Positions 16,142-20,811 of a stretch of DNA of 64,000 nucleotides are shown piece by piece. Position 1 is the first letter of the stretch, and every line of letters starts with the position of its first letter. This DNA comes from Rickettsia typhi (GTDB lineage: Bacteria; Pseudomonadota; Alphaproteobacteria; WRAU01; Hepatincolaceae). The DNA lies in NCBI GenBank assembly GCA_945888065.1, contig CAMCZU010000001.1, positions 1 through 64,000 of the forward strand, in the 5' to 3' direction. The position numbers and the translations under genes are program-made. Under the pieces are notes generated by a model. That model was not told the DNA's origin. It did not search any database and worked only from the letters and a program-made list of their open reading frames with translations.

Positions 16142-16450
16142 ATGGAACAACTACAAAAACGTTGCAATAATTGTGGCTACTTTTACCATATAGATGCTTA
16201 TTTTTGCCCAAAATGTGGTAAGCCTTCAAGCTTTACAAATTCTCATAAAAATAATTTAGTATTACTTTTATTATGTTTGTTTTTAGGTTGGGCAGGAATT
16301 CATAGATTTTATGTTGGTAAAATTGCATCAGGAATTTTTCAATTTTTATTATGCCTTATAACTATTGGATATATTTGGGTAATAATAGATTTTATTGTAA
16401 TTGCTTCTGGTAATTTTAGAGATGCAAACTTTAAAAGAATTAGCTGGTAA
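16142..16450 (+). CDS. Zinc-ribbon plus TM2 domain membrane protein
   Basis: CNNCGYFYHIDAYFCPKCG followed by LFLGWAGIHRFYVGKIASGIFQFLLCLITIGYIWVIIDFI. Confidence 0.85.
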   Translation: MEQLQKRCNNCGYFYHIDAYFCPKCGKPSSFTNSHKNNLVLLLLCLFLGWAGIHRFYVGKIASGIFQFLLCLITIGYIWVIIDFIVIASGNFRDANFKRISW

Positions 16451-16459
16451 ATAACCTTA

Positions 16460-17446
16460 TTAGGCTACAAACTTTAATTTTTCATAAATATTTAACATAT
16501 TTACAACTTCTACTTTCATATTATCTGCTACAACCCACATTGCAAGATTATTATTAACCATACGAACCCTGCTAATATATACATCTTCTTCACCGATTGC
16601 TTCAAATGGGCTTACATAACCATCATTTGCTCTGTAATCTACTACTTTTACATTTTCTATATTGGTTATGATATTTTTAATTTCTTCTTCTGTTCCATCT
16701 ACTTCTATCATTACAGAAAGTGCCTCTCCTATAAAAATAGGAACACGAACACAAGTTGCAACAATGTCTAAATTTACATTTAATACTTTATTACTTTGCA
16801 TACACAATAATTCTTCTTCTTGAGTATTACCATTAGTTGTAAAATCTTTAATATGTGGAATTAAATTAAATGCAATTTGTTTAGTAAAAATATTTTTAGT
16901 TTCAACAATGCTAGAATTAGCATAAATACAACGTGTTTGTTCAAATAATTCACCTAAAGCTTCTTCTCCCTCATTTGATACCCCCTGATAAGTAGATACA
17001 AATACTTTCCCTATATTTTGTATATTATATAAAGGGTGCAAGATTTTTGATAACATTATACAAATAGCACTAGGAGAATTAACAATATTACTTTGAATAT
17101 TACTTAATATATTATCATTAACCCCAACTACCACAGATGGAATCATATAATCATAGGCAAAGCATTCGCTTGAATCTATGACATATGCTTTTGTTTCTTT
17201 TAATTTAGTTGCATAAGGTTCAATATTTTTTTTATTCATCAATACAAATATTACATCTAAAGAATCTAACTCAAATGTATCTAAATTTTCTACCTTAAAT
17301 GATAGTTCTTCTATTTTTAAACGCTTTCCTACTTTATCTTGATTATCTAAAATTACAAGTTTATCAAAAGAGGTATCTTTATCTATCATTGTATTAATTA
17401 ATTCTTCTGTTAAACGCCCACAACCAATTATTCCTATTTGCAACAT
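16460..17446 (-). CDS. Aspartate-semialdehyde dehydrogenase homologue, predicted catalytically dead
   Basis: VSTYQGVS, TKQIAFNLIPHI, TCVRVPIFIG and WVVADN align with Asd, but NPNC is SPSA and FIGHS is FIGEA. Confidence 0.85.
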   Translation of the reverse strand: MLQIGIIGCGRLTEELINTMIDKDTSFDKLVILDNQDKVGKRLKIEELSFKVENLDTFELDSLDVIFVLMNKKNIEPYATKLKETKAYVIDSSECFAYDYMIPSVVVGVNDNILSNIQSNIVNSPSAICIMLSKILHPLYNIQNIGKVFVSTYQGVSNEGEEALGELFEQTRCIYANSSIVETKNIFTKQIAFNLIPHIKDFTTNGNTQEEELLCMQSNKVLNVNLDIVATCVRVPIFIGEALSVMIEVDGTEEEIKNIITNIENVKVVDYRANDGYVSPFEAIGEEDVYISRVRMVNNNLAMWVVADNMKVEVVNMLNIYEKLKFVA

Positions 17447-17475: not shown

Positions 17476-17513
17476 AAAAGGTAAGATATGTAATAAAACA
17501 CAACTTACCTTTT
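17476..17513. terminator. Hairpin terminator downstream of rplS
   Basis: AAAAGGTAAG ... CTTACCTTTT 10-bp inverted repeat. Confidence 0.6.
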
Positions 17514-17545: not shown

Positions 17546-17917
17546 TTAGTATGTTTTTACTTTAAATCCTGTAGTTTGTTCAGCTATTTTTGCAGATTTA
17601 CCTAATCTATTTTTTAGGTAATATAATTTTGCTCTTCTAACTTTACCTTTTTTAATTAAAGTAATAGAATCTATATTTGGATTATAATAAGGAAAAACTC
17701 TTTCTACCCCTTCCCCATAAGATAATTTTCTTACTGTAAAAGAAGAATTTAACCCTCTATTTTTTACAGCTATGCAAATTCCTTCGTAATTTTGAAATCT
17801 ATCACCAATTTTTACCTTAACATTAATAGTATCACCAGGTGTAAAATGCACAGATTTTTTATTTTCTACTAATTTAGCTATTTGTTCTTTTTCAAAATCT
17901 TCTAATATATTTGCCAT
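17546..17917 (-). CDS. rplS: 50S ribosomal protein L19
   Basis: [58 protein letters not shown]. Confidence 0.96.
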
Positions 17918-17939: not shown

Positions 17940-18647
17940 TTAACTTTTTTTATTTATTTTTTTATATTTTTCCCACAAATCTAACCGAATCATCTTTGTT
18001 TTTTCTTCTGCCTTTTGTAATCTCCAAGAAGCAATTTTTTGGTGATTCCCACTTAATAAAACCGCTGGAACCTCCATATTATCATAAACAACAGGCTTTG
18101 TGTATTGTGGATACTCTAATAAATTATCCTCAAAACTTTCTTTTGTAATACATTCTTTTGAGTTTATCACATTTGGTAAAAATCTCAAAATAGAATCTAC
18201 TATTACCATAGCACCAAGCTCTCCACCTGATAAAATATAATCTCCAATACTTATTTCTTTTAAATTATATTTTTTAATAACCCTATTGTCAATACCTTCA
18301 AAATGCCCACAAATAAAAGTAATTCCTTTTTGTTCAGACATTTCAAATGCTTTACCTTGATTAAAAACCTCCCCTGCAGGAGATAAATAATACATATTAT
18401 CCGAGGCACCACTATTGAGGGCAAAATCTATACAATCTCCTAGCACATCAGGCTTTATTAATAATCCTGCTCCACCTCCAAAAACTTTATCATCTACTTT
18501 TTTATATTTATCTTTAGCAAAATCTCTTATATTAAAAACTTTAAAATCCCAAATTTTTTTCTCTAGAGCTTTTTTTGCTAAGGAGTGTCCTAAATAACCT
18601 GGAAACACTTCAGGATACAAAGTTATAAAAGATACTTGATAGGTCAT
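17940..18647 (-). CDS. trmD: tRNA (guanine-N1)-methyltransferase
   Basis: VSFITLYPEVFPGYLGHSLAKKAL, ISIGDYILSGGELGAMVIVDSILR. Confidence 0.96.
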   Translation of the reverse strand: MTYQVSFITLYPEVFPGYLGHSLAKKALEKKIWDFKVFNIRDFAKDKYKKVDDKVFGGGAGLLIKPDVLGDCIDFALNSGASDNMYYLSPAGEVFNQGKAFEMSEQKGITFICGHFEGIDNRVIKKYNLKEISIGDYILSGGELGAMVIVDSILRFLPNVINSKECITKESFEDNLLEYPQYTKPVVYDNMEVPAVLLSGNHQKIASWRLQKAEEKTKMIRLDLWEKYKKINKKS

Positions 18648-18662
18648 TTATTATTTTTATAA

Positions 18663-19205
18663 TTAATTTTTTTCTATTATATCTTCATTGATAGGAATTT
18701 CAGTTGGAAGATTTATTTCAATAAATTTTTTTTCTAAATTAATATTAATTACATTAGCTTTATTAAAAACTAACATAAATAAAGAATTATCTAATTTTTG
18801 AATTTCTAAAATATCCCCTGCACCAAAATTATCTACAGAGTAAACTTTACCTATAAGATTTTTAGTTTTAAAATCTATCACATCTAAATTAAGTAAATCT
18901 ACATAATAAAAATCATCTTCTTGCAAAGATGGGAGAGCACTTTTTTTTATATATAAGTTTTGATTAATTAAATTTTGAGCAACTTCAATAGAATTAATAT
19001 TTTCTAAGGTTGCAATTATTGTATCACCCTTAAAATAATAAGATTCTATAAAATAAGTATTAAGTTGAGAATCAAAAAGTTCATAATCTACAATAGATTC
19101 TAAATCTTGAGTGAAAGATTTAATTTTTAATTCACCCTTTAATCCTTTAGTTCCAACAATTTTTCCAACAATTATATAATCTTTATTAGTTTCTAAATTA
19201 TCCAT
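18663..19205 (-). CDS. rimM: Ribosome maturation factor RimM
   Basis: IIVGKIVGTKGLKGELKIKSFT; PTEIPI near C-terminus; between rpsP and trmD. Confidence 0.92.
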   Translation of the reverse strand: MDNLETNKDYIIVGKIVGTKGLKGELKIKSFTQDLESIVDYELFDSQLNTYFIESYYFKGDTIIATLENINSIEVAQNLINQNLYIKKSALPSLQEDDFYYVDLLNLDVIDFKTKNLIGKVYSVDNFGAGDILEIQKLDNSLFMLVFNKANVININLEKKFIEINLPTEIPINEDIIEKN

Positions 19206-19231: not shown

Positions 19232-19696
19232 TTACTCGGTTGGTTTAGCTTCATCAGTTGATTTAACTTCTGCTTGAGCTTGTTTTTCTGCATCAATTTT
19301 AGCTTGTTTTTCAGCCTGAGCTTGTGCTTTAGCATCTGCCTCTGCTTGAGCTTTTTTTTCTATTTCAGCTTGTTGAGCTTTTAGTTTTTCTTGAGCTTTA
19401 GCTTTTGGTAAGCTTTTTTTAGTTTGCACATGAATTTCTTTTTTTTCTACAATAGAAAATTTAGCTAAAATGCTTCTAACTTTATCAGTTGGTTGAGCAC
19501 CTACAGATAGCCAATATTTAATTCTATCTTCTTTTAGTGTGTATTTATTTTCAGCATTATTTTCTAGCATTGGATTATATTTACCAATAGTTTCTAAAAA
19601 TTTACCATCTCTTGGGCTTCTGCTATCAGTTGCCACTATATGATAATAAGGGTTTTTTCTTGCTCCCCATCTTGCTAAACGAATTTTAACAGACAT
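19232..19696 (-). CDS. rpsP: 30S ribosomal protein S16 with long Ala/Lys/Gln/Glu C-terminal tail
   Basis: MSVKIRLARWGARKNPYYHIVATDSRSPRDGKFLETIGKYNP; tail KAQAEADAKAQAQAEKQAKIDAEKQAQAEV. Confidence 0.96.
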   Translation of the reverse strand: MSVKIRLARWGARKNPYYHIVATDSRSPRDGKFLETIGKYNPMLENNAENKYTLKEDRIKYWLSVGAQPTDKVRSILAKFSIVEKKEIHVQTKKSLPKAKAQEKLKAQQAEIEKKAQAEADAKAQAQAEKQAKIDAEKQAQAEVKSTDEAKPTE

Positions 19697-19773: not shown

Positions 19774-20163
19774 TTATTTATTATTAATTTTTGAAGATAC
19801 AAAACTAGTAATAGCAATTGTTACAATATAACTTGCTAATATTTTTAGTTCTGTATCAACATAATCAAAATATTGTTTCCAAAAAAATGATGATAAAAAT
19901 GAATTAGAATTAATTTCTATTTTAGAGAAAGGGAAAACAATTAATACATACAAAGCTAATAATGATAAAAATACTTTTTTTAATAAAAAAAATTCTATCA
20001 AGCTACCGATTTTATGTTTAATTCTTTCAGGTAATAACTCATTTTTTGCTTTAGCTTTTTTACCTTCAATATCTTCAAATGGTTTATCATTCAATATTGT
20101 ATTTTGTGTATATTTATCTTTTGTATTTATCAAGAATTTATTAAATTTAAAATTTGGACTCAT
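19774..20163 (-). CDS. Small two-TM protein downstream of a Panacea-domain gene (candidate toxin/partner)
   Basis: Hydrophobic segments KKVFLSLLALYVLIVFPF and LKILASYIVTIAITSFV; starts 5 bp after the stop of the 20169..20648 gene. Confidence 0.6.
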   Translation of the reverse strand: MSPNFKFNKFLINTKDKYTQNTILNDKPFEDIEGKKAKAKNELLPERIKHKIGSLIEFFLLKKVFLSLLALYVLIVFPFSKIEINSNSFLSSFFWKQYFDYVDTELKILASYIVTIAITSFVSSKINNK

Positions 20164-20168
20164 TTGAT

Positions 20169-20648
20169 TTATACTTCTTTATCAGTTGTTAAAGATGGAA
20201 TATGCAATTTTTTAAATTCTTCTTTAATATCTTCATTTTCCAAATAATCACCTAGCTTTTTAGCTTTGTCCCAAGCCCCTTCTTTAATATGGCTAATATC
20301 AGATAATTCCCAAGCATCCATTGTTCCAAAAATACGATCTATAGATTCTAACAAAGGAATCATTTCTTCAGAAATCTCTTTAGAATTATCATTTTGAATA
20401 ATTTTATTTACTGCATTACTTCCAAAATTTTTTAACTCATCATACAACTCTGGTATAACAGGTCCATACTTCCAAGCTTGAATTTTTTCTTTTATTAATG
20501 GGTAACCTTCATAATGCATATAAATACCATTTGTAAAATATACTAATTTTTGTAATTGCATATTTGTTATTTGATTATTAGTATTTTTGTGTTTTTTAAT
20601 AAAATAATTTGCTATATCTATACAAGAATATGTATCTTGTTTTTCCAT
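20169..20648 (-). CDS. Panacea-domain (DUF4065/SocA/GepA-like) protein, candidate antitoxin
   Basis: MQLQKLVYFTNGIYMHYEGYPLIKEKIQAWKYGPVIPELYDELKNFG; ATG at 20648 preceded by AAGGAG ribosome-binding site. Confidence 0.85.
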   Translation of the reverse strand: MEKQDTYSCIDIANYFIKKHKNTNNQITNMQLQKLVYFTNGIYMHYEGYPLIKEKIQAWKYGPVIPELYDELKNFGSNAVNKIIQNDNSKEISEEMIPLLESIDRIFGTMDAWELSDISHIKEGAWDKAKKLGDYLENEDIKEEFKKLHIPSLTTDKEV

Positions 20649-20811
20649 TATATACTCCTTAAGCACACTTAATGCTATTATTAATTTTATTTTATAATTT
20701 TATAATATATAGATAGTTGTAAAATACCAGCTATATTTTTTATATTGTCATTTTTTTATAATTTTAATACATTGAAATTATAAAGTAAAGAAAAAATTCT
20801 TTAAATGTATA

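Follow-up and report, generated by a model that had tools for sequence, protein, structure and literature searches.

A degenerate aspartate-semialdehyde dehydrogenase homologue, probably kept as a non-catalytic protein, at the rplS-linked asd locus of a Hepatincolaceae genome

The 64,000-nucleotide stretch of DNA analysed here (the window) contains an open reading frame at 16460..17446 on the minus strand whose 328-amino-acid product is identified as an aspartate-semialdehyde dehydrogenase (Asd)-like pseudoenzyme by the ORF list, profile matches and predicted fold. Here, in a genome that is shrinking, the old locus still holds a dead relative of an enzyme that is usually essential. Pseudoenzymes of core amino acid biosynthesis have rarely been traced in bacteria, and in several families similar copies have survived the loss of the pathway. 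We consider it probable that the gene is the original rplS-linked asd, that it has lost Asd chemistry and that its product, folded and probably dimeric, has been retained for a non-catalytic binding role.

The frame starts with ATG and has no internal stops, and its product matches both Asd domains above their cut-offs (PF02774, 104 bits; PF01118, 39 bits). Together with the complete predicted fold, this architecture places the protein in the Asd fold superfamily and confirms the full-length Asd homologue described in an earlier note on this DNA. By sequence, the nearest solved structures are Asd2 of Vibrio cholerae, followed by Porphyromonas gingivalis Asd and Pseudomonas aeruginosa Usg-1. 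The features of a catalytic Asd are missing: neither the Cys, the His nor the GATGxVG loop is present, and the score against the equivalog model TIGR01296 is 214.4 bits against a cut-off of 324.2. The protein barely exceeds the cut-off of the NCBIfam Asd model PRK14874 (223.4 versus 223 bits), and automatic annotation would therefore name it Asd, so that an active enzyme, and hence a lysine/diaminopimelate (DAP) step, would be reported where none exists.

Residue columns were read from alignments in which the window protein was compared with 31 to 70 relatives. SPSA (residues 124-127; 17066..17077, minus strand) takes the place of the nucleophile motif NPNC, both asparagines having become Ser (positions 124 and 126) and the catalytic Cys being Ala127 (codon 17066-17068). 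This is the substitution proposed earlier; the alternative of a Ser under a shifted alignment was not borne out, as Ala stands in the Cys column. Cys129 lies two residues downstream of Ala127, at the start of a helix. In the column of the acid/base His stands Glu241 (16724..16726, minus strand; FIGE for FIGH), again as anticipated. The GATGxVG region reads GCGRLTEE (residues 8-15; 17402..17425, minus strand), with one residue deleted, and resembles a GxGxx Rossmann loop, and strand 2 ends in Asp34 (17345..17347, minus strand), at a position that holds the A/S of LASxRS in NADP-type Asd proteins. The SxRS, SAG, PEVN and RKGAA motifs are gone as well, which, apart from SxRS, had been part of the same claim as the loop. 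The Arg that contacts the substrate carboxylate, Arg234 of CVRVP (16745..16747, minus strand), is retained, as is Gln154 of TYQ. The GxG loop and Asp34 might still allow the protein to bind NAD.

In a genome with a GC content of 25.4%, the probability that a random frame of 328 codons lacks a stop is about 1e-13, and the GC contents at codon positions 1, 2 and 3 (0.42/0.26/0.14) are similar to those of priA, ffh and trmD. A chance frame was ruled out on these two grounds, and a single sequencing error was rejected as the cause of the replacements since the altered codons are several and lie at distant sites. AlphaFold2, run on a 39-sequence alignment, predicted a complete Asd fold (pLDDT 84.6, pTM 0.82) whose best match in the PDB is Vibrio Asd2 (2qz9; TM 0.85), with Usg-1 (2hjs) at 0.84. 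Two stretches, about residues 155-200 and 270-290, were modelled with low confidence, perhaps because they depend on a partner subunit. The PF02774 match covers the C-terminal dimerisation domain (about residues 135-309; 16520..17044, minus strand), which is the better conserved half, with 44-49% identity to relatives versus 24-25% for the N-domain. Judging from codon-position GC, the lack of stops and a decay focused on the N-domain, the gene still looks selected. The suggestion that it is a retained pseudoenzyme is supported by the intact frame, the coding signature and the complete predicted fold, and by the purifying selection on dead homologues of another family described below.

The gene follows rpsP (19232-19696), rimM (18663-19205), trmD (17940-18647) and rplS (17546..17917, minus strand), the last lying upstream of it and serving as the marker of the ancestral asd locus, and the same linkage is seen in three other genomes of the family (G001, G002 and G003). 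At canonical alphaproteobacterial asd loci, where neighbours were named by reading the sequences, the order is rplS-leuC-leuD-leuB-asd, often with sdh, zapE, mdh and sucC beyond it. Because the rplS-linked place is common to the family and to canonical asd, the window gene is the positional orthologue of the original alphaproteobacterial asd, as had been supposed. The protein forms a clade with the Asd orthologues of G001-G003 in trees (support 97-100). Between rplS and the asd-like gene, an A/U-rich and stable terminator-like element is present, a 10-bp hairpin followed by a U-run (17476..17513, minus strand; fold z = -3.8), which a simple terminator scan did not list. Convergent with the asd-like gene is a gene for a TM2-domain protein with a weakly matching N-terminal zinc ribbon (16142-16450, plus strand). 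A gene for a SocA/Panacea-domain protein (PF13274, 76 bits) and one for a 129-amino-acid protein without a Pfam match (19774-20666, minus strand) are inserted between rpsP and ffh; the two may be a toxin-antitoxin pair.

A search of the window genome (G000; 867,558 bases in 26 contigs, 86% complete) for a second, intact asd, proposed earlier as a check, succeeded. One further PF02774 protein is encoded on contig C2 (83931-84869, minus strand); it has 313 amino acids, carries GATGLVG, NPNCST and RVPILYGH and shares 23-32% identity with the window protein. Its gene belongs to a cluster on one strand, dapB-dapA-lysC-dapF-aminotransferase-asd (C2:83931-89627; locus L036:3928-9606, minus strand), in which the aminotransferase is closest to LL-DAP aminotransferase models yet below their cut-offs. 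Since this Asd has intact motifs and lies in a DAP cluster, the Asd chemistry needed for DAP is covered outside the window copy. No homoserine dehydrogenase was found in the genome, and neither the ThrC nor the LysA of E. coli, used as queries, gave a match; with lysA not found by that query, the compact cluster probably serves peptidoglycan DAP. The C2 Asd is a long branch, which one tree places with Vibrio Asd2 and the other beside the window family, and we therefore do not claim horizontal transfer.

The three family members (98, 98 and 92% complete) each have a single Asd homologue, at the same rplS locus. The catalytic Cys is present in all three and the His in G002 and G003 only, G001 having His replaced by Ser and Arg by Gln; the nucleotide loop is altered in all of them. 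Within the four family genomes sampled, the Ala/Glu state is thus seen in the window genome alone. In G001-G003, single-model searches of mostly draft genomes detected neither aspartokinase nor homoserine dehydrogenase, and likewise no DapA or DapB; DapF is retained in G001 and G002. That these relatives have lost the aspartate pathway and kept the gene is the main reason to suspect another function, although their Asd proteins may, by their residues, be active enzymes of unknown use. As asd is kept without the pathway in all other sampled members of the family, the simplest reading is that pathway-free retention preceded the loss of catalytic residues in the window lineage. Asd identity is 38-41% between the window genome and the three and 46-55% among the three; control genes evolve alike across the four genomes, and the window copy has evolved faster than its orthologues.

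Retention without the pathway was followed through a class sample of 387 alphaproteobacterial genomes, mostly drafts. Asd scored above the TIGR01296 cut-off in 338 and gave some match in 365; the 27 genomes with weaker matches only include the window genome, and the other 26 were inspected together with G024. A Cys-less homologue is the sole Asd in 14 genomes (G050, G063, G084, G091, G159, G166, G176, G184, G239, G245, G262, G307, G328 and G369) from families f48, f60, f81, f88, f136 and f139, with the motif of G328, whose protein is very divergent, read from an alignment. Aspartokinase, searched for with a single model at E <= 1e-30, was detected in 336 genomes and not in 51, among them all 14; for 31 genomes its status was obtained manually by subtracting one list from the other. 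A Cys-less homologue as the only Asd is therefore seen in 14/51 genomes without detected aspartokinase versus 0/336 with it (Fisher 8e-14, a value that ignores kinship and so overstates the significance), several of the weak Asd matches in genomes with aspartokinase being fragments. The other 37 genomes without aspartokinase comprise 19 with no Asd, the three members of the window family and 15 with Asd above the cut-off, which perhaps reflect assembly gaps at aspartokinase. As in the window genome, a Cys-less copy occurs alongside a second Asd in G036, G038 and G054. Copies linked to rplS were found in G050, G024 and G036, and sdh genes adjoin those of G176, G084 and G166; in the stretches read, the copies of f60 and f88 and most of those of f48 are not near rplS. 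In f48 and G024 (L152, L154, L232, L235, L236 and L237), a gene read from its sequence as an MscS-like channel gene follows the dead asd, with a gene similarly read as murD-like in 4/6. A further Cys-less group, with SPHP or similar for NPNC, is formed by the Asd-like proteins of L069-L076, mostly from Acidobacteriota.

Across ten dead lineages, the Cys is kept in 0/10 and the His in 1/10, and E166, Q170, A192-F193-N194 and E211 are conserved in 10/10 and P197 in 9/10 (the underlying comparison numbers these positions one higher); these non-catalytic columns may merely be requirements of the fold. For one dead pair, G159 and G369 (88% amino acid identity), differences at the three codon positions are 0.08/0.06/0.46, and the NG86 method gave a dN of 0.073 and a dS of 1.76, which is near saturation, for a ratio of about 0.04. 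Purifying selection on these two homologues is supported by this comparison of coding sequences, with the same reservation as to dS; the nearest relatives of the window gene are only about 40% identical to it. Parsimony gives at least three independent losses of the Cys, including that of E. coli Usg, in trees where long branches attract. The window lineage lost its Cys separately, since its family members keep the residue; the dead copies of the other families may represent one old lineage or several.

The preferred reading builds on the lost catalytic and loop residues, the intact gene and predicted fold, the second Asd, the ancestral locus and the pathway-free retention in relatives. The original asd would have stayed at the rplS locus while its nucleophile, acid/base and nucleotide-loop residues were lost; its product would be expressed, would dimerise and would bind a partner (a protein, an RNA or a metabolite) through the conserved dimerisation domain. 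Such a binding role may have been a second task of the enzyme beforehand, saving the gene when the pathway was lost, as in the relatives, or borne by another cluster, as in the window genome. More generally, and with a little less than even confidence, we propose that alphaproteobacterial Asd has a second selected function independent of catalysis and that lineages which lose the pathway or possess a second asd repeatedly keep the dead original. The locus thus offers a testable case that Asd does more than make aspartate semialdehyde. We found no paper on Asd pseudoenzymes in the literature, and E. coli Asd is merely entered in a table of a paper on moonlighting proteins (PMC4307903).

Three other explanations were weighed. 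With the C2 asd present, the window copy could be a young decaying gene, drifting functionless and so far free of stops, and it is indeed the fastest in its family, on a long branch of 2.0-2.3 changes per site and with an N-domain at 24% identity. With that amount of neutral change at 25% GC, however, stops would almost surely have arisen, given the random-frame probability of about 1e-13, and its codon-position GC is that of selected neighbours while the dimerisation domain remains at 44-49%; we regard this decay as unlikely. A changed enzyme, with another nucleophile (e.g., Cys129 or Glu241) and NAD held by the GxG loop and Asp34, seems a slim prospect. The GCGRL loop and Asp34 are reminiscent of a classical NAD-type Rossmann motif, there is a weak match of residues 1-89 to aspartate dehydrogenase (8e-5), Arg234 and Gln154 are retained, and the family members have the Cys; Cys129, however, sits two residues along at the helix start, pocket columns vary among dead lineages with no common new residue, and no obvious pathway gene adjoins the window gene.

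The protein might instead regulate the active Asd of its genome or serve it as a non-catalytic subunit, as in a hetero-oligomer with a pseudoenzyme. The conserved half is the dimerisation domain and an intact-looking Asd is encoded in the same genome, but the two proteins are only 23-32% identical, and the idea is further weakened because the family members and the f48 genomes keep the homologue without another Asd to regulate, which makes such a role very improbable.

Compared with bacterial-type Asd (TIGR01296/PRK14874; V. cholerae Asd2, 2qz9), the window protein shares the fold, both Pfam domains, the locus, Arg234 and Gln154 but lacks the Cys nucleophile, the His base, the NADP loop and the RKGAA tail (214/324 bits with TIGR01296). 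The second Asd of the window genome has a parallel in Wolbachia of plant-parasitic nematodes, which carry a second, transferred asd2-lysC (PMC9084900), a parallel that we do not extend to the transfer.

The Usg proteins, which the earlier note had named as a precedent, are the nearest one in kind but hold as an analogy and not as kin. Usg/Usg-1 (b2319 of E. coli, which lies between pdxB and truA, and 2hjs of P. aeruginosa) are likewise degenerate Asd relatives that have lost the Cys (VPDS, SPCA); 2hjs carries SPxA and FFGD where the window protein has SPSA and FIGE, and E. coli Usg coexists with a true Asd, as the window copy does with the C2 Asd. However, Usg keeps GATGxVG and has other neighbours and another origin, E. 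coli Usg grouping with Vibrio Asd2 (support 100 in one tree) and the P. aeruginosa protein being a long branch of unsure place. PRK05671 and PRK08040 are the Usg-type NCBIfam models, and the window protein falls far below their cut-offs (142.4 versus 284 and 122.4 versus 273 bits). No truA/pdxB neighbourhood exists at the window gene, which is flanked by rplS and the TM2 gene, the truA homologue being on C3. The models and the tree led us to reject membership of the Usg family, whose function is also unproven; in Salmonella, the usg operon has been tied to intracellular survival (PMC6358828). A further parallel is with the Cys-less Asd proteins of other alphaproteobacteria (f48, f60, f81, f88, f136, f139 and f22; G036, G038 and G054), several of which keep GATGxVG, unlike the window protein, but which have likewise lost the Cys and in several cases remain at the ancestral locus.
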